Positions 1,815 to 15,742 of a stretch of 55,695 nt of DNA are shown here, piece by piece. Within the stretch, counting starts at the first letter, position 1. Each line of letters starts with the position of its first letter. Position numbers and translations under genes: made by a program. The notes under the pieces were generated by a model. The model was not told the DNA's origin, ran no database searches, and saw only the letters and a program-made list of their open reading frames with translations. The stretch is from Desulfobacteraceae bacterium (GTDB lineage Bacteria > Desulfobacterota > Desulfobacteria > Desulfobacterales > SURF-7), in NCBI GenBank assembly GCA_003599865.1, contig QZKS01000092.1:1-55695 (forward strand). The letters are read 5' to 3'.

Positions 1815-2984
1815 TTATGAGCCAAGGAGTTGATGATAGAATGCTTCCAGTTTAGTTACGATGGAAGCCTTTTCAAAATTTTTTGCCGCAAATTTTTTGC
1901 CGCCGATTGATAAACGATTTAATTGTTCACGGTCTTGATTCAATGCGAGAATGATATTTTTTATTTCTTCTGCATGACCGTGCTTCAGAATAATCGCCTC
2001 TTCTCCGTCTCTCAGAAAATGGGCAATATTGCTGTCGGGAAGAATGACCGGTTTTCCCATGGATAGAAATTCCGGAATTTTCGAGGGCAGACGATAGTCG
2101 TTAAACGGTCCTGGATTCCCCGGTTGAATCAGCAAATCCGCTGCCGTCATACAGGCCAGCAGATCGGATCGACTCACAAAACCAAGCTCGATGACAAAGT
2201 CTTGAATCCACGCTTCATCGGGTTGTAGAAAAGAGCAGTAATGGGTTCCGGTGCGAAGCAATTTTACGGAAAGACCTTCTTGATTGGCAAGACCAATGGA
2301 TACATAAAGAGACCGAACCTCTTCGGCATTCGACTGATGCGTATTACCGGTATAGGCCACAAGAAAATCATTTTGCCCGATTCCCAATTGTTTTCGGTAC
2401 TGTCTGATATCCAGATTCACGGAATAGTCATCCATGTTTATGATCGGCCAGAGAATAATGGAAGGTTTTTCGCGGGGCACAAATTTTTGCAGGGTGTCCA
2501 TGATCAGTGTGAAACCATCGGAATCCGCTATAAATTTTTTGTAGTACCGCGGATGTGCGAACTGGTCGGCAAACATTTTTTTCAGCAGAAAATAGGGAAA
2601 GAATTTCAGGACTGCTGAAGGAAGTCTTGTTGCCCCTGCCAGGATCTGTTCTTCATTATCTTCCAGATGAATGGCAACCTTTGCTTGCGGATACTCGCCG
2701 CTTAACGGTTTTACGATATTTCGTACCGCCTCACGGGGAGTCCAGGCATGAATGATATCCGGTTCCTGATTATTTTTGAAGGGAAGGCGTTTTTGCCGGA
2801 TGTCCGCAAATTCAAGGGCGGTATATGCAATATGCGGTGCGATAAACTCCTGTATGCTGTTTTTATGACTTTTGGCCATAACGGTGCAGTCATGTCCGGA
2901 TTCAGAAAGCGCATTTGCAAAATTGTGCACATGAATCGCACTGTTGCTGATGAAGCTGTCATATAGGATAAAAAGTATATTCAA
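1815..2984 (-). CDS. GT-B glycosyltransferase, GT4-like
   Basis: The 389-residue protein starts MNILFILYDSFISNSAIHVH, which is a Rossmann-type first strand of a GT-B fold. The C-terminal donor domain begins near residue 200 (LVAYTGNTHQSNAEEVRSLY). It carries LPSKIPEFLSMGKPVILP near residues 300-318, the usual E-containing nucleotide-sugar site of family GT4. The start codon is TTG, with no in-frame ATG until residue 37, so the TTG is accepted. It probably uses a nucleotide sugar to extend the polymer. The first domain lacks obvious acceptor clues. The upstream gene ends 37 bases before it, so it is part of the same operon-like run. Confidence 0.85.
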   Translation of the reverse strand: MNILFILYDSFISNSAIHVHNFANALSESGHDCTVMAKSHKNSIQEFIAPHIAYTALEFADIRQKRLPFKNNQEPDIIHAWTPREAVRNIVKPLSGEYPQAKVAIHLEDNEEQILAGATRLPSAVLKFFPYFLLKKMFADQFAHPRYYKKFIADSDGFTLIMDTLQKFVPREKPSIILWPIINMDDYSVNLDIRQYRKQLGIGQNDFLVAYTGNTHQSNAEEVRSLYVSIGLANQEGLSVKLLRTGTHYCSFLQPDEAWIQDFVIELGFVSRSDLLACMTAADLLIQPGNPGPFNDYRLPSKIPEFLSMGKPVILPDSNIAHFLRDGEEAIILKHGHAEEIKNIILALNQDREQLNRLSIGGKKFAAKNFEKASIVTKLEAFYHQLLGS

Positions 2985-3021
2985 AACGACTCAGATGATA
3001 TCCTTTACCAATAACAGACTG

Positions 3022-4263
3022 TTATTTTTTTTTCAGAATATCGAGAATTCTGATCTTAACGGTTCGGAAAAAAAATTTGAGGATTTCAATCGCACGAAAA
3101 TGATCGGCAAGGTCCAGGCGATCCATATAATCTTTCTGCAGGATGAGATAGTGCTGCGTCATCATTTCATAATAGTAGAAAAAGGTTTTCTGGGTAAAAT
3201 GGGGAGTTGCATCGGCTTCAATGATATCATTTTTATGCGAAAGAAAAATGTCCCGGCCTTCGATTCCTTCAACCAGATTGGTTTCATGGGGCTTCATTTC
3301 CTTGCCGAAAGAAAGTATGGGAGACCGTGTCTGCTTTGAAGTCAGCAGGAAATCTTTACGGCAGGCTTCCATTGATTTTACACCGTAAAGATCAACCTCA
3401 TAATCGTATTGCTGCAACAGTGGTGTCAAACGGTTCAGACATTCAGGCAGAATTTCACAGTTGGCATCATATACGGCGTTGGATTCCTCAAAACGGATGA
3501 AATGGAATTCTTTGGTATCATACTGCAATGGGCGTTGATGCAGTTTGATATTTTCTGGAAAATGGGTTCCGACAGTTCCGAAGTTGGTGGTATACGATAC
3601 CCGCGGATAGACAAAATATTTGTTCTGATCGATCATATAGCGGATAAAATCTACCTCCCAGGTACTGTTTTCATTCCATGCGCGGACGTTGACGGGAAGA
3701 AAGGCATCCCGTTTTTTTTGTGCAGTTTTATCCTGCTGCTGCCAGGTTTGAAAATCTTTCCAGTGCTTTTGGGTCCATAGCTCCCCCCATGAGGACGGAA
3801 TTTGCAGAAAGAAAACATCTGTACGGTCCTGGATAGGCGTAAAGGGCAGCAGGGCGGTTTCATTGAAGCCATGACTGTAAAGCGAAATTCCGGATATGTT
3901 TTCGTCATGGCGGTAAAATTTCAATGCATCCAATGCATACACGTAAAATTGGGGTGATACGAAGATATCGTCTTCCAGAATAATTACGTTTTCGAATGTT
4001 TCGGCCAGATCACCGCAGCGCCGGATGTGGTTTTTGCAGCCCAGTCTTGTTTCTGAGAAGAGGATTTCCTTATCACCATGACGCCACTGAAACGTTTCCG
4101 CAACGGCAAGGGTATCCTTGTTGTCGTTCTGATCCAGGCTGATGACGAGCCGGGTTTTATTGGGATATATGGACCTGCCCAGAGAGTGCAGCAATCGTTT
4201 CAGGTCATGCGGCCTATTATAGCCAACTGCCACAATGGTCGGCGGGGTTATCAATTCATTCAT
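3022..4263 (-). CDS. GT-A glycosyltransferase, GNT-I-like
   Basis: The 413-residue protein starts TPPTIVAVGYNRPHDLKRLL and carries VISLDQND near residues 40-47 and VIILEDDIFVSP near 93-104. The EDD triad at 97-99 is the expected metal and donor site. This pattern resembles N-acetylglucosaminyltransferase I-like (GT13) GT-A folds, which appear in some bacterial polysaccharide loci. The C-terminal 130 residues are of unknown role. A GGAG ribosome-binding site precedes the ATG at 4263. It should be a cytoplasmic sugar transferase; the sugar is unknown. GT2 membership is the main alternative. Confidence 0.75.
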   Translation of the reverse strand: MNELITPPTIVAVGYNRPHDLKRLLHSLGRSIYPNKTRLVISLDQNDNKDTLAVAETFQWRHGDKEILFSETRLGCKNHIRRCGDLAETFENVIILEDDIFVSPQFYVYALDALKFYRHDENISGISLYSHGFNETALLPFTPIQDRTDVFFLQIPSSWGELWTQKHWKDFQTWQQQDKTAQKKRDAFLPVNVRAWNENSTWEVDFIRYMIDQNKYFVYPRVSYTTNFGTVGTHFPENIKLHQRPLQYDTKEFHFIRFEESNAVYDANCEILPECLNRLTPLLQQYDYEVDLYGVKSMEACRKDFLLTSKQTRSPILSFGKEMKPHETNLVEGIEGRDIFLSHKNDIIEADATPHFTQKTFFYYYEMMTQHYLILQKDYMDRLDLADHFRAIEILKFFFRTVKIRILDILKKK

Positions 4264-4304
4264 TTTTTCTCCAGAATTTGACTGCGTAATCTAAGAAACA
4301 AAAT

Positions 4305-5402
4305 CTAATGGATCATATCTTTATAGATACGGATAATCTTTTTTTCCTGAATCAATTCGGAAAAGTTGTCCTGCGCTCTTTTTTTACCGGCAAGGCCCAT
4401 TTTTTCTCTCAACTTTTGGTTTTTGAATAAAGTCAATATCCGGTCCGCAAACACGCCGACATCTCCCGGGTCTGCAATATATCCGGTTGTTCCATGAATA
4501 ACAGACTCAGGCATTCCGCCTGCATTGGACACAATACACGGCAGACCGTATGACATGGCTTCAACTACTGAAATACTGTGATTCTCGATGAGACTGGGTT
4601 GAAAATAGATCATTGCGTTCGCGTAAAAAAAATCTACATCGTTTCGGTGACCGAGAAAGAAGATATTATCTTCCAGGTTGTTTTTTTGGACAGCGCTTTT
4701 CATCTCATCAAGTTTTTCTCCGTCGCCCAGCCAGACAAATTTTATTGTTTTCTCTCTTTCCGTTACCATTTTTGCAACTTCCAACCATTTTACCGGATTT
4801 TTGTAATCCCGGACATGACTGACGGTCAGCACGATGGGCTCCCTGATAGAAGGCAGCGTATGCATTTCCTGCTGAAAACTGTTATGTACAACCCGGATAT
4901 GTTTTGCCGGTATGCCCAGATATCGACTATTGTTGTGGGCTGCATATTTCGATACGGCTACATAATGTTTTTGACGGCTTGTCAGAAAATACCGGAATGG
5001 TTTTCTCAGGATGTTCCATATGATGGAAGACTCCGGATAACCATGAAGCCAGAAGACAATTTTTTTTGCAACGAGGAATATTCCCAAATTCAATTCCCGG
5101 CCGCCATCGGATACAACTGTGATATCCGGTTGAAAGCGTTTAACATACTTGCGATAATGGATTACTTCATAAATCAATGAAGATAATGGGTGGTAATATC
5201 GTTGTGTGCGATCCGGGGTCTGAAAAATTGTAATATCATTTTTTTGACAAAAGCTTTTAACCTCTGTGTCTAATTGGTTTTTTTGTATCAATATGGCGGT
5301 TTTAATATTGTTGCGCAGATGGATTCTGAGAAGCCTGAAAAAGAAAACTCTGGTGCCTCCTGTTGATAGAAAATCTGCGATAAGTAGAATTTTAATTTTC
5401 AT
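4305..5402 (-). CDS. GT-B glycosyltransferase, GT4 family
   Basis: The protein of 365 residues starts MKIKILLIADFLSTGGTRVF, with a GG loop typical of the acceptor-binding domain of GT4. The donor domain starts near IVLTVSHVRDYKNPVKWLEV. It contains ENHSISVVEAMSYGLPCIVS, the conserved E-x7-E-like donor site with its first position as ENH. I chose the ATG at 5402. A longer reading from a TTG at 5420 has no better ribosome-binding site and adds six residues with no family support. The gene follows a GT2 gene by about 20 bases and is co-oriented with the whole cluster. Its donor and acceptor are unknown. Confidence 0.85.
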   Translation of the reverse strand: MKIKILLIADFLSTGGTRVFFFRLLRIHLRNNIKTAILIQKNQLDTEVKSFCQKNDITIFQTPDRTQRYYHPLSSLIYEVIHYRKYVKRFQPDITVVSDGGRELNLGIFLVAKKIVFWLHGYPESSIIWNILRKPFRYFLTSRQKHYVAVSKYAAHNNSRYLGIPAKHIRVVHNSFQQEMHTLPSIREPIVLTVSHVRDYKNPVKWLEVAKMVTEREKTIKFVWLGDGEKLDEMKSAVQKNNLEDNIFFLGHRNDVDFFYANAMIYFQPSLIENHSISVVEAMSYGLPCIVSNAGGMPESVIHGTTGYIADPGDVGVFADRILTLFKNQKLREKMGLAGKKRAQDNFSELIQEKKIIRIYKDMIH

Positions 5403-5421
5403 ACCAACTTTACAATTCAAT

Positions 5422-6378
5422 CTATCTTTTCAAACCTTGTCTGATATGGAAAATTCCGTTTTTTATGAAGCTTATTATTTGCGTTTTTCTATATCGCATT
5501 CTTCGTAGTAATAAATTGAAATCAGAAATGGTTTCTTTGAGTGCGGTATTTTGTGTTGATAGGCGGAATGCATAATCTGCAACATGAATAAAACCTACCT
5601 GTCTTAATTTCTCGGCCACAATTAAAAAAAAGGATGATTTTGGAGTGCCGGGGTTTAAAAAAATGCTATTGGTATTGATGTCATCCAAAAAATTTTTATA
5701 TACGGAATATACTTCTTTCATCATGACAGCACTCATTGTATTGGTTCCTTGATCCGGATGAAGTCGTGACTGTATCAGTACTTCCTTCATGTGGACAAAA
5801 TCATAATTTTTGGCCATGCGGAACCACAGGTCATAATCCTGAGTTGCTTTCAGTTTCTCATTAAACCGGCCTGTCTTATGAATACAATTTTTATGAAAAA
5901 GAGTGGTGCAGCCATGTATGGGATGTCCGGTCAGCATGGCCAATACAAACTGATCGGGCTCGGCATGTTCGATTGTATTGGTCCGGAGATATCTTGATTC
6001 ATGATCGATAAAATCATAGTCGCTGTAAAGGATTATATCCTTTTTGTTTTGCTGCAAAAATGCAATCTGTTTCTCCAGTTTATAAGGGTAATAGACATCA
6101 TCATGGCTTAACCAGGAAACATATTCCCCTTCCATTTTATCGATTCCAAAATTTAACGCAGACGCCACGCCACCGTTTTCTTTATGGAAGTAGCGGATTA
6201 GATTCCCATAAGATTTTGCGATGTTTTCGGTTTTACCGTCATCCTTGGAGCCATCGTTCACCACAATCACTTCGCGATTTCGATACGTCTGCTGCAATGC
6301 ACTGTCAATGGCTTCCCGCATGTAATTGGATCCATTATAAACAGGAATGATAATAGAGACGATAGGATTGAATATCAT
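5422..6378 (-). CDS. Family 2 glycosyltransferase
   Basis: A classic short GT2 enzyme of 318 residues. The first strand reads IVSIIIPVYNGSNYMREAID, followed by VVNDGSKDDG (donor base and ribose site) and WLSHDDVYYPYKLEKQ. In the last motif the usual DxD is SHDD. I chose the ATG at 6378. A longer frame begins with a TTG inside the previous gene, but its extra residues show no GT2 homology, and a GGA lies about 10 bases before the ATG. The protein has no membrane segment, so it should act in the cytoplasm. It lies directly downstream of the nucleotide-sugar trio, so it may use that product, but this is inference. Confidence 0.85.
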   Translation of the reverse strand: MIFNPIVSIIIPVYNGSNYMREAIDSALQQTYRNREVIVVNDGSKDDGKTENIAKSYGNLIRYFHKENGGVASALNFGIDKMEGEYVSWLSHDDVYYPYKLEKQIAFLQQNKKDIILYSDYDFIDHESRYLRTNTIEHAEPDQFVLAMLTGHPIHGCTTLFHKNCIHKTGRFNEKLKATQDYDLWFRMAKNYDFVHMKEVLIQSRLHPDQGTNTMSAVMMKEVYSVYKNFLDDINTNSIFLNPGTPKSSFFLIVAEKLRQVGFIHVADYAFRLSTQNTALKETISDFNLLLRRMRYRKTQIISFIKNGIFHIRQGLKR

Positions 6379-9488: not shown

Positions 9489-9580
9489 GTCATTCCGGCG
9501 AAGGCCGGAATCCAGGGAAATGAAGTGCTATCCAGTATTTTCAATTTTTTTCTGGACACCGGCCTTCGCCGGTGTGACGG
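9489..9580. repeat. Dispersed palindromic repeat entering a gene's 3' end
   Basis: The left arm GTCATTCCGGCGAAGGCCGG (9489-9508, continuing to AATCCAG at 9515) is nearly inverted in the right arm 9552-9580, which reads CTGGACACCGGCCTTCGCCG and ends in GTGTGACGG. Each arm also holds its own GGC hairpin. The element belongs to the same kind of repeat as 1709-1770. Its right arm lies inside the 3' end of the glycosyltransferase gene 9541-10782. Confidence 0.8.
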
Positions 9581-10782
9581 TTTTTCATCGTTTTGAAATT
9601 AGCTCTGTTATCTTCCGCAATGGTTTTATAAATTTCAACAGCTTTGGGTTTTAATAATTTATGGTCTAATTTCTCAGCTACAATCTTTTCGTTTATGTCT
9701 GCCGCCTGGTTTACCAGCTCATCATCCGATAACGCTTTTCTGATGGCCGTTTCTATGATTTCAGGATCTTCAGGTGGAACCAGCAGGCCGTTTTCCCCGT
9801 CAATGATCCACTCATCAGTACAGGCTGTCCAGGATTGAATCGGAAAAGATCCCATTGCCATCGCCTCAAATAATGAGTTCGGCAATCCGTCGCTGATACT
9901 CAGGCCGATGGATAAGCGGGATTTGCTGTGATATTTTAACATTTCCAGGTGAGGGGTCCCATGTGGGATAATTTGGACAGGGATGCCTGTAGAATCTGAA
10001 AAGAGTTCAGCGGCGATTTTAACATCCTGATTTGCTACATATAAAATAATCTGATAGCCTTTTAAAGCATCCGCGCACCTTTCAAGTGCCCGTAATCCGA
10101 CCAGAGATCTTCCTGCAAAACTTTGGTACCCTTTCAGCATGATGAGTTTGCGGTCGGAAGTTCTGCAAAGGTCACTGACTTTTTTGCATTCGGAGAGATC
10201 CAGACCGCCTGCACCATTGAGCCTTGGTAAAATTTTTCCGTTAAAACCGAAATTTTTTGCAAGTTCGATATCTCTTTTGCATTCACATAAAAAATAATCA
10301 CACTGCTGCAGCACTTTTGATATTTTTTCTTTGTGTTCTTCCAGTCGGCCGAACAAAAACAGATCACTGCCCCAAATTGTATGGACCCATGGGGGGAATG
10401 GTTTTGGATGGTTTTGTTTTACTTCACTCAACAGATAACCGGCAGCCTGCGTCTCCAGTGTGTGAATGATATCCGGTTTGATTTTTTGAATTATTTTGTT
10501 CAGCTCAATTACACGATCGACGGGGAAATAGTCATGCCGAAAACGATTGAATACATTGTATGCAGACATCAGGTACCGCTTGATATTCTTTTTATCATTT
10601 TGATTTGGCGTCTGATTCCTGGCATAATGGGAAGGATGAATTTTTACATGATGAATTTCAGGATGGACAACACCCATATCCATGCTTGGATATAAATGGA
10701 GATCCCATCCCTGGTCATTGATCTGGGATAACCAGCGAGCCGTGTGGATGCTGTCGGACATGGATATTATCAGGATGCGCAT
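9541..10782 (-). CDS. GT-B glycosyltransferase with repeat-encoded C-terminus
   Basis: This protein of 413 residues starts MRILIISMSDSIHTARWLSQ, a GT4 acceptor-domain opening. The donor domain carries ISDGLPNSLFEAMAMGSFPI, with the E-x7-E-type site as the nucleotide-sugar binder. The last residues, RHTGEGRCPEKN, are a translation of the dispersed repeat at 9552-9580 and do not belong to the GT4 fold. Insertion of the repeat near the stop codon therefore added about a dozen residues, probably without loss of activity. A run of about 60 residues before it (residues 340-400) looks normal. The gene is the next in the series after the nucleotide-sugar trio, counted against transcription. Its donor is unknown. 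Confidence 0.85.
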   Translation of the reverse strand: MRILIISMSDSIHTARWLSQINDQGWDLHLYPSMDMGVVHPEIHHVKIHPSHYARNQTPNQNDKKNIKRYLMSAYNVFNRFRHDYFPVDRVIELNKIIQKIKPDIIHTLETQAAGYLLSEVKQNHPKPFPPWVHTIWGSDLFLFGRLEEHKEKISKVLQQCDYFLCECKRDIELAKNFGFNGKILPRLNGAGGLDLSECKKVSDLCRTSDRKLIMLKGYQSFAGRSLVGLRALERCADALKGYQIILYVANQDVKIAAELFSDSTGIPVQIIPHGTPHLEMLKYHSKSRLSIGLSISDGLPNSLFEAMAMGSFPIQSWTACTDEWIIDGENGLLVPPEDPEIIETAIRKALSDDELVNQAADINEKIVAEKLDHKLLKPKAVEIYKTIAEDNRANFKTMKNRHTGEGRCPEKN

Positions 10783-10825: not shown

Positions 10826-11833
10826 CTATAATTTTTTAGAAAACCAATTGTTAACATGAGAAACAGATTCAACTATCCTTCTGATCATCTTAAAACTGAT
10901 GGACTGGTGAATCTGTTCCATCTGATTTTCCAGGGTTTCATTTTTTGATTGCAATCGGCTATGCTCTTTTTCCAGCAGAAGGTATTTTTCGTTGATTGAT
11001 AGAAACGGATTATGTTGCATTTTCACTAAGATGTTTTGGGAACCGCGGGTTTGTATATAGTGGAAGTTTTTTATTTTCAGTGAAAGGGGTTTTCCATTAT
11101 AGTGATACCGGCAGAGGGTATTGAACGGACAATAAGATAATCTTTTTTTGATTATTTCATTTTCCACCTGGGCTATGCCGCCGTCACCTGTACGATATCC
11201 ATCCGGGTCAACAACATGATCCGGATGGTTTACTGTAATATGATTTCCTGTATTGATAATAAAGTTAAAGGGGGAAGGGGCCAAGCCATTTGTTAAAAAC
11301 CTGTACGAATGTTCCGTGTGTCCGAATCTTTTATACTTGGCAAACTCAGTATGCCATCCCCCAACTTTTTTTAAACCTTCGGCAGTAAAAAAATTAAACG
11401 CACCGCTGCCGAAATCCGAATGGATTATTGTAAAATTTTCAACTTGAGTTTCTTTATTATTTCCAAAAAATTGATGAGTTTCACCAGAGGAGAAATGGTG
11501 AATTCCGGTTTTCGCTGACAAGTTTATATGAATATCAAAAATTGAATGATCAACTAATTCCACATCATCATCAATGAAAAAATAGTAATCATAGTCCGGG
11601 AAGGTTTTGAGTACACGGTTCTTGGATAGCCCGACCCCTTCCTGGTTTTCCGAATAGATTGCCGGGATATCAAACTTATTGAAAAAATCCAGATATGTTT
11701 TTTCTTCACCATCCAGGGATACCAGAAAGTCATAGGCCGGGTTATCGTTGCAGAAGGCAATATAGTCAGGCAGTATGGATTTCAATACCGGAAGCCTTTT
11801 ACAGGTGGTGATGCATAGTAAGGATTTTTTCAT
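10826..11833 (-). CDS. GT-A glycosyltransferase
   Basis: The 335-residue protein starts MKKSLLCITTCKRLPVLKSI and has LVSLDGEEKTYLDFF near residues 37-51. The acidic motif YFFIDDDVELVD has its DDD triad at 88-90. A later segment, TNGLAPSPFNFIINTGNHIT, may help bind the acceptor. The last 50 residues look coiled coil (LLLEKEHSRLQSKNETLENQ), which may hold the protein in a complex. It shares ATGA with the stop codon of the upstream GT2 gene, so the two are translationally coupled. It resembles GT2 enzymes but with an odd core, so the family name is uncertain. Confidence 0.75.
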   Translation of the reverse strand: MKKSLLCITTCKRLPVLKSILPDYIAFCNDNPAYDFLVSLDGEEKTYLDFFNKFDIPAIYSENQEGVGLSKNRVLKTFPDYDYYFFIDDDVELVDHSIFDIHINLSAKTGIHHFSSGETHQFFGNNKETQVENFTIIHSDFGSGAFNFFTAEGLKKVGGWHTEFAKYKRFGHTEHSYRFLTNGLAPSPFNFIINTGNHITVNHPDHVVDPDGYRTGDGGIAQVENEIIKKRLSYCPFNTLCRYHYNGKPLSLKIKNFHYIQTRGSQNILVKMQHNPFLSINEKYLLLEKEHSRLQSKNETLENQMEQIHQSISFKMIRRIVESVSHVNNWFSKKL

Positions 11834-12855
11834 TTTACCTTGTGTTTTCGAACGATTCGGTCCCGAATGGATATCATGGTGCTATAAACGGTCAAATCGA
11901 AAACCGACCGAAGCTGTTTTAGATACGCTGTCCGGTATAGCTTTTCCTGAATCAGCCCCTGGCACTGAATTGACAATTTGGTTAATTGTCGAATTGATTG
12001 AAATGCATTAAACAGGTGGTTTGTTGATGCCATGGCCGGCATCTCCGCATGCCGAAGAAAAGAGGACAACAGAAGTTGCTGATGGTTTTCGCCGGTATAT
12101 TTTTTAAACCACTGCCACAGGGTTATCCACATGTGTAATTTGTTTTCGTATACTTGAAGGGCAGGGCGTTCGGCGGTAATGCGGTTATGGACATGAACCC
12201 TTCGCATTGCAACCGGTTCATCAACGCTTCCCTGGCGGGTTTTGCATACGGCGGTCAGCCTGATGAAAAGCGCCGTGTCTTGATGCAGCCTGAGGTGCTC
12301 ATCGAACAGGCCGGTTTTTTGGAAGACGTTTTTTTTGACAACCCATCCCGCGGTATGAAAGTAACCCACGTTTATATTTCCAATATGTGCCAAAAACAGT
12401 TCATGGGACGTCAGTTGTTGTTTGATTGTTGTAATTAACGGTCGGTTCAGTTGTTTCCATTTCTGCTCCGCTTCGGCTGTTTCAAAGTGACTGCCTACTG
12501 CTTCACAAACGCATTCGAGGGAATGATCCGTGTCGAATAATTGCTTTGTGGTGACAAATCGGCTGGGCAGAAAGAAATCGTCGGCGTCCAGAAATGCGAC
12601 ATAATCATTTTTTGCGGCCATGATACCAAGGTTTCGACTGGCGCCGGCCCCGTGATTTTTCCCATCTTTGTGGGTAAGGAGTTTTACATTTTCCTGTTCA
12701 TCAGCCAGATTCCGGCATATCTGTAAGGAGTTGTCCGGGGAATTGTCCTCAACCAGGATCACTTCACCGGTTTCCGGCTGAGTCAGAGCACTTTCAACAG
12801 CCTGTTGGATAAAATTTTCTGCTTTATACACCGGTATGACGACGGAAACTTTCAT
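11830..12855 (-). CDS. Family 2 glycosyltransferase
   Basis: The 341-residue enzyme has the GT2 start MKVSVVIPVYKAENFIQQAV, the ribose loop LVEDNSPDNS and the DxD-type YVAFLDADDFFLPSRF with DADD at 90-93. The start codon lies inside the 39-bp repeat copy at 12842-12880, and its GAGGG ribosome-binding site overlaps a relic of the stop codon of the gene at 14195-15742. This shows that it was once directly downstream of that gene (see the insertion finding). It now follows the radical SAM gene instead. It should transfer a sugar in the cytoplasm. Its stop overlaps the next start. Confidence 0.88.
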   Translation of the reverse strand: MKVSVVIPVYKAENFIQQAVESALTQPETGEVILVEDNSPDNSLQICRNLADEQENVKLLTHKDGKNHGAGASRNLGIMAAKNDYVAFLDADDFFLPSRFVTTKQLFDTDHSLECVCEAVGSHFETAEAEQKWKQLNRPLITTIKQQLTSHELFLAHIGNINVGYFHTAGWVVKKNVFQKTGLFDEHLRLHQDTALFIRLTAVCKTRQGSVDEPVAMRRVHVHNRITAERPALQVYENKLHMWITLWQWFKKYTGENHQQLLLSSFLRHAEMPAMASTNHLFNAFQSIRQLTKLSIQCQGLIQEKLYRTAYLKQLRSVFDLTVYSTMISIRDRIVRKHKVK

Positions 12856-12880
12856 GAACCCTCATTGCATCAGCCATTGA
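12842..12880. repeat. Direct repeat copy A flanking radical SAM gene
   Basis: Thirty-nine bases match 14175-14213 at 37 positions; the differences are at 12853 and 12870. Read on the minus strand, the copy begins with a relic of the 3' end of the 14195-15742 gene (QWLMQ then TGA), followed by the true ribosome-binding site and the first codons of the 11830-12855 gene. Confidence 0.95.
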
Positions 12881-12932
12881 CCGGAATGATCCAGATTTGT
12901 ATGTTTTTTCTCACAGTAGCCCGAACGGAGTA

Positions 12933-14090
12933 TTATTTTTTTTGCGATATCGGTCGCAGGGATTGTAGTGCACCAAGTTGAATTTTAACGGAGCTATCAC
13001 CATTAAAAATTGGATCTTTCAAGTAATCAAGTAAAGAATGATATTCCGGATGAGAAGGTACATGGACAGCTGATTTTTCACAGTGTGTCTTGTTTCCACT
13101 CCATGGTCGGATCGGGCTGAAACTTATTTCATCAACATTGAGATCCTTTCCCATTTGGATGAAATCTTTCATTTCCTTCCAATTATGTTTCTGAACAACC
13201 ATAATAATTTTAAAAAAATCAATTCGTCCCTCATTACGTAGTCTCGATATAAAACGGAGATTTTTACTTAAAATTTTCCAACTTCCACCCCGTATAAGGG
13301 AATAGGTTTCTTCTTGGACTGCATCTACAGAAATTTCAATTTCCTTAATTCTATGATTCATGCAACTCAATTCAGACCATGTCTTTTCAGTGAGAAGTAC
13401 CCCGTTAGTTAATATTGTTATATTAAAAGGCGGATAATCTTTATCATTGATAGACTTGAGTAAATCCATGTATAACTTGCTGCCAAAAGGATCACCGGAA
13501 CCCGTAACCTTTAAATATTCTACTTTGTCAATATTGTTATTCTTTAAGAGAAAGTCTTTTATGATTTTATTTTGTAGAGTTTTTAGACGCTCATATTCGG
13601 GACCTTCTGATAAATGAATAAACTGGGTTCGGCAACTTGGACATTTTAGATTACAGGATCTGTCATATGCCAAGTTAAGATAACCAATTTTACTAACAGT
13701 TAGCCTTTTATTCTGTATAATATCTGCATAGAAAGGGTCGTTTATTTCGTCGATTCTTGCTAAAGGTGGTACTTTGGGAGCCAAAGAGGGGCAACCTGAA
13801 CAGAATCTAAAAGAACCATCTAAAATTGATTTTCGAAATGCTTTGGTTTTTTCCCCATTCCATGCATCTATTGGGTTTATCAGATTCGTTTCACCCACGT
13901 GCCGCATAGGAGATCCACTGAGGCAACATATTGTGTAATGTGAGTCGTTCACCCATAGTTTTTCAAAGGGCACCGGACAAAAGAAACCTTTGTGATTCTT
14001 ATACCTTTTCTCAATCGGTTTCCTTAAAGAATTGGAAAACTGAAAAACCTTTTTTTTAATGTTTGATAGCATGAAATAAAGAGTCTCCAT
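12933..14090 (-). CDS. Radical SAM protein with N-terminal SPASM-like cysteine region
   Basis: This protein of 385 residues carries the radical SAM cluster motif CNLKCPSC (C146, C150, C153), which binds the 4Fe-4S cluster that cleaves S-adenosylmethionine. Before it lies a cysteine-rich part, FFCPVPFEKLWV, then ICC and FCSGC (C38, C55, C56, C97, C100). This resembles a SPASM or twitch auxiliary-cluster domain but lies on the N-terminal side, whereas SPASM is usually C-terminal. The reaction is unknown; a dehydrogenation, epimerisation or methylthiolation of a sugar are possible. The gene is more A+T-rich than its neighbours and lies between two 39-bp direct repeats, so it was probably inserted. 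A second ATG at 14072 is an alternative start. Confidence 0.85.
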   Translation of the reverse strand: METLYFMLSNIKKKVFQFSNSLRKPIEKRYKNHKGFFCPVPFEKLWVNDSHYTICCLSGSPMRHVGETNLINPIDAWNGEKTKAFRKSILDGSFRFCSGCPSLAPKVPPLARIDEINDPFYADIIQNKRLTVSKIGYLNLAYDRSCNLKCPSCRTQFIHLSEGPEYERLKTLQNKIIKDFLLKNNNIDKVEYLKVTGSGDPFGSKLYMDLLKSINDKDYPPFNITILTNGVLLTEKTWSELSCMNHRIKEIEISVDAVQEETYSLIRGGSWKILSKNLRFISRLRNEGRIDFFKIIMVVQKHNWKEMKDFIQMGKDLNVDEISFSPIRPWSGNKTHCEKSAVHVPSHPEYHSLLDYLKDPIFNGDSSVKIQLGALQSLRPISQKK

Positions 14091-14174
14091 TTATCAGGTG
14101 TTCTATTGACAAGCTTCTGTTTAATCCGTGCCAATTCTCGTTTAACACAGTAAACTTTTGTTCAAATTCGGTCA
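14057..14174 (-). pseudogene. Orphan 3' gene fragment carried in with the radical SAM gene
   Basis: From the repeat boundary at 14174 to a TAA at 14057-14059 one frame stays open. It reads like the true tail of a protein (for example LNENWHGLNRSLSIEHLING, then DSLFHAIKH). It has no start of its own and overlaps the start of the radical SAM gene, as genes of an operon often do. The simplest view is that the inserted segment brought the last 35-40 codons of the gene that lay upstream of the radical SAM gene in the donor. I do not recognise the family. The open frame is short enough that chance cannot be ruled out. Confidence 0.4.
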
Positions 14175-14213
14175 ACGGAAACTTTTATGAACCCTCATTG
14201 CACCAGCCATTGA
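14175..14213. repeat. Direct repeat copy B flanking radical SAM gene
   Basis: This is the partner of 12842-12880. On the minus strand it holds the true end of the 14195-15742 gene (QWLVQ then TGA), followed by a decayed copy of the start of the 11830-12855 gene. The start codon there has changed from ATG to ATA (14188-14186), while AAAGTTTCCGT is kept. Confidence 0.95.
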
Positions 14214-15742
14214 ATGGCCTTGTCTTCCTGTTCAATTGCATTCAGCAGATTATCCGCAGACTCTTTGCGTATGGATTGATCAATCCGGGACAGGGAATCA
14301 ACGGCGTTCAGGATTGCGTCATGCCTGTCGGCATACATCATCATGTTGTGATCAATATACTTTTGAAAGGCGCTTTTCCCGCTTGGGTGAATAAGGATGG
14401 TCGGAACATGAAACGCGGTTGCTTCAATGGCACAGGTGGAATAACCGGTGATATGTATGTCCGCGATATGAAACAGGGTGTACAGCGGCAGTCGGGTGGC
14501 ATCGGATACATTTACACCGGCATGATTCAGGTTGGCATATTTTTTTTCATAGGAATCGAAAGCATCCATCGTCTGCCGGTGTACTCTGATAAGCCAGAGC
14601 CAATCCGGTGGACTATCCTGAATGGCCGGAATAAGCAGATCTTCCAGATTGATACCGGTCTGAAGTGTAACCAGCAAGACCTTTGAAAAGTTGCCGGTCA
14701 ATTGGTTCGCCTTGCCGATTTGTTTTTTTATCTCCGGGTCGCTTTGGTGGATCCATTTATTCAACCATAGATTTCCCCCGATCATAATGCTTTCAGAAGA
14801 AGTGATGTCGCTGTTGCAATCCATAAGCGTGTTTTTTTCATCCCGACTCCAGACCCAGTATCTGTCAGGGCGCAAGGCATATCCGCCGGCTGGGGTGTTT
14901 TTCCAGGAGGAATAGGCAAAATGCCCGTCACCCTGGAGTCCATGCTGAAAGTCAATCGAACGGATTCCCAGCCTGGATGCGGCCAGAATGGCGGCCATGG
15001 ATTCTATGTTATACCAGCAGTCGGTGACTACGGTTTTACACTCTGTTTTGGCAAGCCACTTTTGCATGATCGCACTGTATGCAACAATCTGCCGGATCAT
15101 ATGGATCATGTTCTCCCAGTGGACGGCAAAACCCAACTCCTTTTCCGCCCACGAAGCAAAATCTTCAAACCATGAAGGCGATGGATACGTTACCGAAAAT
15201 TTTTTACAGGCATCCTGGAATTCAATTTCCAGTAGTTCACTAATTCTTGATGGTTGGTATATTCTCGGATTTATTGAGCCGCTTCGCTCCCAGACAACGT
15301 AGGGGATTTTTTTTCGGCCCAGTTTTTCTACCAGAGGATCAATTAGCGTATGATAATATATACTATCATATTTTATGAGTCTATTCGGGTAGGTTAGTAT
15401 TACGACATCACATTTTTTTGTTGGAGATGGCCATCCATGTGTTGTCCATGTTTTATAGAGTAAACGTTTATTTTTATTTTTTTGATACTTCTGAATCAGG
15501 TTTATTTTCAGATTATGAACCTGATCATTTATTTTTTCAATTATCGAAAATGGTTGATGTCGTTTGTTTACAGTTTGAGTCTGATTGCTGGTTGAGTAAA
15601 AACCGGTAAGCTTTGTAGCAACCGCAAGAGAAACTTTTATCCTGATAATCGGCCAGACATTTATGCCATATAATTTGAATGTATCAACCTTATGCGTTTC
15701 TTCAAATGATGCAAATTTTTTGGTGATTATTTCACGGTTCAT
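14195..15742 (-). CDS. Capsule-type GT-B-like glycosyltransferase of unknown specificity
   Basis: The protein of 515 residues begins MNREIITKKFASFEETHKVD, followed by LYGINVWPIIRIKV, an opening I associate with large polysaccharide-locus proteins of unknown activity. The C-terminal half looks like a GT-B donor domain. It has IDFQHGLQGDGHFAYSSW, then LLVTLQTG, and HITGYSTCAIEATAFHVPTI near the end. These echo capsule synthesis proteins in which a His and an S/T-E motif line the nucleotide site. I chose the ATG at 15742; the longer frame starts with a TTG that overlaps the LegC gene and adds 18 residues without support. It lies directly after the nonulosonate genes, so a nonulosonate transferase is possible but unproved. 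Confidence 0.7.
   Translation of the reverse strand: MNREIITKKFASFEETHKVDTFKLYGINVWPIIRIKVSLAVATKLTGFYSTSNQTQTVNKRHQPFSIIEKINDQVHNLKINLIQKYQKNKNKRLLYKTWTTHGWPSPTKKCDVVILTYPNRLIKYDSIYYHTLIDPLVEKLGRKKIPYVVWERSGSINPRIYQPSRISELLEIEFQDACKKFSVTYPSPSWFEDFASWAEKELGFAVHWENMIHMIRQIVAYSAIMQKWLAKTECKTVVTDCWYNIESMAAILAASRLGIRSIDFQHGLQGDGHFAYSSWKNTPAGGYALRPDRYWVWSRDEKNTLMDCNSDITSSESIMIGGNLWLNKWIHQSDPEIKKQIGKANQLTGNFSKVLLVTLQTGINLEDLLIPAIQDSPPDWLWLIRVHRQTMDAFDSYEKKYANLNHAGVNVSDATRLPLYTLFHIADIHITGYSTCAIEATAFHVPTILIHPSGKSAFQKYIDHNMMMYADRHDAILNAVDSLSRIDQSIRKESADNLLNAIEQEDKAIQWLVQ

Follow-up and report, generated by a model that had tools for sequence, protein, structure and literature searches.

A radical SAM gene in a polysaccharide cluster of a Desulfobacteraceae bacterium was probably added, by whatever route, as an insertion that duplicated its target, namely the 39 bp in which an upstream gene (here called X) ends and a GT2 glycosyltransferase gene begins. 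Each copy of these 39 bp carries the working part of one neighbouring gene and a relic of the other, and a second, 51-bp duplication elsewhere in the same genome has an uninterrupted counterpart in two congeners. Unless a contig is named, coordinates refer to the window, that is, the whole stretch of 55,695 nucleotides that was analysed. The features concerned are as follows.

11830-12855, minus strand: GT2 glycosyltransferase gene, downstream of the putative insertion
12842-12880, minus strand: copy A of the repeat, a relic of the 3' end of X, then the true ribosome site and start codon of GT2
12881-14174, minus strand: putative inserted segment, 1,294 bp, GC 35.8%, no terminal inverted repeat above chance
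12933-14090, minus strand: radical SAM gene, GC3 0.309, lowest of the 47 window genes; single match in the genome
14175-14213, minus strand: copy B of the repeat, the true 3' end and stop of X, then a relic of the GT2 start (ATG to ATA)
14195-15742, minus strand: gene X, upstream of the putative insertion; weak match to a BFO_1060-type glycosyltransferase

The 39-bp repeat at the X/GT2 junction

A repeat search of the window matched 12842-12880 with 14175-14213 at 37 of 39 nucleotides, with a start-to-start distance of 1333, as the earlier note had described; allowing up to three mismatches, the pair gave two matches in the window, against a mean of 0.00 and a largest count of 0 in 100 dinucleotide shuffles. 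When a pattern allowing both variants was run at the same tolerance over the whole draft genome (5,013,143 bp in 100 contigs, 97% complete), the same two places were the only ones found, and the reversed pattern, used as a control, gave no match. The repeat is thus not widespread in this genome; it is a wide distribution that the earlier note had set against its own reading.

On the coding (minus) strand, copy B reads ...CAATGGCTGGTGCAATGAGGGTTCATAAAAG..., which contains the last codons of X and its TGA, and copy A reads ...CAATGGCTGATGCAATGAGGGTTCATGAAAG..., which contains the ATG of the GT2 protein MKVSVV.... The description of copy A as an X-end relic with the true GT2 start, and of copy B as the true X end with a decayed GT2 start, was confirmed on these sequences. 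One of the two differences between the copies, ATG against ATA, is in copy B, within its spare half; the second lies in the last codons of X, which have GTG (Val) at the true end and ATG in the relic. The Shine-Dalgarno-like GAGGG of GT2, as read from the sequence, overlaps the stop codon of X, and the duplicated piece is exactly the junction of stop, ribosome site and start.

In the order of transcription on the minus strand, a LegC-family aminotransferase gene is followed by X, copy B, the radical SAM gene, copy A and GT2. The outer junctions of X and GT2 are tight, and no further relic was seen beside either gene. The match of X to the BFO_1060-type glycosyltransferase scores 34.1 bits against a cut-off of 200, and no Pfam family was found for X at E 0.001. 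Elsewhere in the window, a palindromic element of the GTCATTCCGGCGAAGGCCGGAATCCAG type lies between genes at 9489-9578, and similar elements recur in 400 kb of the congener G002.

The segment between the copies

The 1333-bp added unit of the earlier note is, in its length, the start-to-start spacing of the copies; the insert proper measures 1,294 bp, and it does bear the radical SAM gene. Its GC content is 35.8%, as against 46.3% in GT2 and 43.3% in X. The earlier claim that neither transposase nor terminal inverted repeat is present was borne out: no transposase or integrase was found among the ORFs of the insert (ORF list and Pfam search), where the sole ORF of at least 80 aa is the radical SAM gene (PF04055), and one simple ungapped test for terminal inverted repeats gave 13 matches, close to a null mean of 11.7 with a 95th percentile of 14.

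The GC3 of the radical SAM gene is the lowest in the window by a small margin, the next values being 0.318, 0.326 and 0.327; the gene does not rank lowest in total GC, and the surrounding cluster is a mosaic in composition. The protein resembles the N-terminal twitch type at 89.6 bits in NCBIfam, below the cut-off of 170, and a CX3CX2C motif was recognised by eye. Because GGAGA stands 11 nt upstream of an ATG at 14072, the gene may start there and not at 14090. Its place in a cluster with legionaminic-acid-type genes suggests that the gene product tailors a sugar or another small molecule.

No second match to the gene was found in the genome, either in a DNA search or in a protein search at E 1e-30, and the insert and its gene had no further match in the 2.06 Mb of this genome that was examined. 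Matches to the protein occurred in 3 of 72,556 plasmid records, all below 60% identity; no solved structure matched at E 0.01, and promoter and terminator scans gave results at chance level.

Search for an uninterrupted X-GT2 site

When the DNA of 12700-14400 was compared with the four genomes of the genus (drafts, 85-97% complete), the genome itself was the only one to match, with 0 of 3 congeners. Protein searches were carried out in a sample of 389 genomes of the class, the source genome included. Gene X had matches in six other genomes (E limit 1e-3; best identity 29%), the GT2 protein in two (E limit 1e-35; 47%) and the radical SAM protein in one (E limit 1e-30), a genome of the same family in which the closest relative found, at 37% identity, adjoins a larger protein in which similar stretches, Cys-rich and CX3CX2C, were recognised by eye. 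In nine pieces of DNA round such protein matches, some of only 2-6 kb, no X-GT2 or X-radical SAM neighbour pair was detected with 21 window proteins; in genome G300, a radical SAM stretch of 25% identity lies about 5 kb from the relative of X, not adjacent to it. Contig scans of further genomes with X and the radical SAM gene, by a method that reaches close relatives only, confirmed none. The proposal that X and GT2 were once joined and that an insertion duplicated their junction is therefore supported by the complementary relics, the composition, the uniqueness of the repeat and the event described next, and not by an empty X-GT2 site, of which none was found in these searches.

A second duplication with an uninterrupted counterpart

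The second case lies in the same genome, and its site is not in a polysaccharide cluster.

Contig C1, 42102-42152 and 47322-47372: 51-bp repeat, 51/51 identical, 3' end of a pyruvate-formate-lyase-like (PFL-like) gene

The two copies are 5,220 bp apart and flank 5,169 bp with genes for an enoyl-CoA hydratase (ECH), an acyl-CoA ligase-like protein and a radical SAM protein; an alpha/beta hydrolase gene follows the downstream copy. This insert has no transposase or integrase among its ORFs and no terminal inverted repeats above chance, and the 51 bp were found at no place besides these two at up to three mismatches.

In the congeners G001 and G002, the PFL-like gene runs directly into the alpha/beta hydrolase gene with one 51-bp copy: in both genomes the overlap between the two BLAST pieces is exactly 51 bp, so that each site has a single copy. 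The three insert genes gave at most short DNA matches in either congener. Since the C1 copies are identical to each other at 51 of 51 positions but match each congener at 45 of 51 (six differences), the duplication most likely arose in its own lineage, after the split; that the congeners lost the segment by deletion between old repeats is unlikely, unless homogenisation has made the copies alike. The third congener, G003, is without the PFL-like gene, has a weak trace of its end (31/51) before the hydrolase gene and is not informative, and in eight other genomes of the family the two flanks were found together in none, among the matches listed. The C1 event, whose empty site is present in two congeners, shows that insertions of this kind happen in this lineage.

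Further repeat-flanked stretches and the frequency of such insertions

Near-identical direct repeats were sought in 1,255,695 and then in 2,055,695 bases of this genome. The first scan gave 31 pairs, and the gene context was read for 14; the other 17, on L034, L037, L040, L079 and L082, were left out, judged by spacing or look only. The wider scan gave 81 pairs, of which 45 passed the filter and eight were read, two of these being shared with the first 14. Less tested candidates for target duplication came from these scans.

Contig C3, 130039-130217 and 132793-132971: 179-bp duplication, 175 identical, 3' end of a phosphomannomutase-like gene
Contig C37 (L078), 5727-5979 and 9587-9839: 253-bp duplication, 244 identical, 5' end of a PCMT-like gene

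The length of the duplication thus varies by site, being 39 and 51 bp in the cases above and 179 and 253 bp in these candidates. Between the C3 copies lie an integrase-domain ORF, a PIN/Phd pair and a DUF6602 gene. The ORF encodes 194 aa and matches the integrase N-terminal domain PF13495 at 28.6 bits against a cut-off of 27; because the stretch carries it, some such duplications may be recombinase-made. The genes flanking the C3 stretch are 26 bp apart in G003, and the same spot differs in G002 and G003. We regard C3 as a variable spot where the event is not clean, because a CBS-domain gene also lies between the flanking genes here. Between the C37 copies, at a spacing of 3.9 kb, are a DUF488 gene and ORFs that have no Pfam match.

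Several other pairs were set aside: a 63-bp pair round an LRR gene (L065), parts of which recur several times in congeners, and pairs that look like gene repeats, with both copies in one ORF (L035), with the copies in two ORFs (L072) or with the copies upstream of two like-sized ORFs (L068). The loci considered also included L038, L054 and L074. The scans also brought up a nested rearrangement on contig C4 (L134 2998-5290), where pairs of 128, 123 and 63 bp lie at varied spacings round an ECH gene. On contig C2 (L024 2107-4592), a 120-bp pair with 108 identical positions and copies 2.4 kb apart has one copy within an ORF and the other outside the listed ORFs, and could be a further relic. A 28-bp pair on contig C9 (55307 and 62534; 27 identical, 7.2 kb apart) has one copy within a 411-aa ORF and the other in an opposite-strand ORF. 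A large CRISPR-like array with the 32-bp repeat GTCGCGCCCCGCGCGGGCGCGTGGATTGAAAC was seen in G002 (contig C45, L186, about 2545-6020).

Parts of the genome were also compared with 400 kb of G002; the 143 kb that aligned held four insertions of at least 400 bp, and flank duplication or overlap was found in 0 of these 4, a small sample. Junction duplication is therefore not shown to be the usual mode of insertion.

Discussion

Insertion with duplication of the X-GT2 junction is the simplest reading of the two complementary relics, and it fits both the composition of the segment and the uniqueness of the repeat. In the ancestor, the end of X and the start of GT2 would have lain within one 39-bp stretch of stop, ribosome site and start, which is the empty site that we infer for the window locus. 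A foreign piece of 1.3 kb with one radical SAM gene would have been inserted at that stretch and the 39 bp left on both sides, with X keeping its end and GT2 its ribosome site and start; the spare halves of the copies would then have begun to decay.

Such a history would call for a repair or replication event that copies the 39 bp twice without Ku. Classical bacterial end joining (Ku/LigD) is not likely, because Ku (PF02735) was found in 0 of the 4 genus genomes (drafts, 85-97% complete) at E 0.001, in a search whose sole match among 14 control genomes was B. subtilis. Along one route, replication would switch template onto the incoming fragment and return 39 nt behind the point of exit; along the other, a staggered break would be filled in before joining. 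A template switch with a step back, or the filling-in of a staggered break, explains the order flank-target-insert-target-flank in one event at both sites. Granted an insertion with target duplication, we put forward a step of this sort tentatively, with a chance somewhat short of even. We propose that long duplications are retained because both operon genes stay working.

The complementary relics are also exactly what would remain if an ancestral X-GT2-radical SAM or radical SAM-X-GT2 array had been doubled in tandem and one GT2, one X and one radical SAM gene had been lost at random. No foreign capture is needed for this, and nothing in the window speaks directly against it; it requires, however, a series of losses whose breakpoints would have spared only 39 collinear bases on each side, while X and GT2 have tight outer junctions with no other relic and the radical SAM gene is unlike both neighbours in composition. 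At C1 tandem duplication with loss fits badly, the flanks being joined in G001 and G002 and only short DNA matches to the insert genes being present there; on the whole we consider this explanation improbable. A more serious candidate, possible if doubtful, is that a circularised or homology-facilitated fragment, bearing the radical SAM gene together with 39 bp homologous to the junction, was taken in by a single crossing-over; this overlaps with insertion with target duplication as such. Crossing-over of circles is described as demonstrated in E. coli (PMC3240628), a circle model is described as proposed for Arabidopsis (PMC2869330), and neither Ku nor a transposase is needed; but the circle must already hold the end of X and the start of GT2 beside the radical SAM gene, which presupposes a donor with that arrangement, and at C1 the donor would have to match at 51/51 while the congeners match at 45/51.

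Insertion of a classical DNA transposon or IS was rejected for the window segment, which is without transposase and without terminal inverted repeats and is flanked by a repeat of 39 bp. Islands often rebuild gene ends, and the C3 stretch, a 179-bp duplication at a gene end with an ORF bearing the PF13495 integrase domain, would suit site-specific integration in which an att-like gene-end duplication is made by a tyrosine recombinase that acted in trans or has since disappeared. Against this, no integrase was found among the ORFs of the window insert or of the C1 insert, and the 39-, 51-, 179- and 253-bp repeats differ in length and show no shared core by eye; such integration seems to us quite improbable. 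That the genome is a 100-contig draft might suggest an artefact of assembly, but the two copies differ at 2 of 39 bases, one of these differences removing the start codon from the relic, and each copy continues outward into an intact gene, so that we give this explanation hardly any credence.

An illegitimate (non-transposon) insertion with long target duplication is thus the likely kind of event, unproven at the window locus. Insertion with long target duplication was reportedly named from Helicobacter pylori, in work said to be that of Nobusato, Uchiyama, Ohashi and Kobayashi (2000, Gene 259:99-108). Inserts of this class are described as gene-sized, flanked by a long target repeat of variable length, found by genome comparison and without a link to any known mobile element (PMC1643837, PMC3874152, PMC3031569); restriction-modification genes are described as frequent among them (PMC1643837), a tie that is also made in the other two sources and in PMC3154945, PMC4978471 and PMC2749054. 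Like these, the window and C1 cases have a gene-sized insert between direct target repeats that are far longer than a transposon duplication and of variable length, and neither insert has a transposase or terminal inverted repeats. They differ in cargo, here one radical SAM gene in the 39-bp case and a metabolic segment of three genes in the 51-bp case, not restriction modification, and in repeat length, the duplications of the H. pylori-type cases being given as in the order of 100 bp (PMC3874152). Among papers found under 'long target duplication', many concern H. pylori or restriction modification and none polysaccharide clusters, going by their titles.

Other systems resemble the window insert in part, and searches of the literature brought up none closer than those cited here. 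In E. coli conjugation, circularised degraded plasmids are described as giving lacZ duplications of 109-950 bp in 14 sequenced clones, in a RecA-dependent manner (PMC3240628); the insert is likewise flanked by a direct repeat of variable length, but that system is a laboratory construct with designed homology. The transposed genes of Arabidopsis are described as single genes between direct repeats of a genic target, with circle insertion favoured (PMC2869330); there, in a eukaryote, donor sites were identified for 25 of 126, whereas here no donor copy was found. Homology-facilitated illegitimate recombination, as proposed for T6SS modules of Vibrio cholerae, would likewise add foreign modules and leave gene-end remnants, but one side is homologous, the old module is displaced, and the account in PMC5361080 has no described exact short duplication on both sides. 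Among variable segments of E. coli, S. aureus and S. pyogenes, repeats are reported to flank 10-18% and to be mostly shorter than 30 bp, and the same source reads repeat-flanked segments partly as deletions between repeats (PMC2884548). A tyrosine-recombinase island differs from the window insert, which has no integrase gene beside its single ORF of at least 80 aa.

What is new here, within a published kind of event, is that the cargo is ordinary and that the duplicated piece coincides exactly with the stop/ribosome-site/start junction. Polysaccharide clusters may gain tailoring genes by such insertion, the window insert being the one case. It is conceivable, though we think it rather unlikely, that a general route free of transposase and independent of Ku adds metabolic or sugar-tailoring genes inside the operons of this lineage, the survivors being those insertions in which the stop of the upstream gene is spared along with the ribosome site and start of the downstream one. 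The entry of single genes into tight operons without breaking the neighbours and without a transposase is poorly explained, and both junctions provide material for testing the mechanism. Published cases are frequently linked to selfish restriction-modification genes. That one genome has two cases with ordinary cargo, one of them with an empty site in two congeners, suggests that the process is not peculiar to selfish genes.
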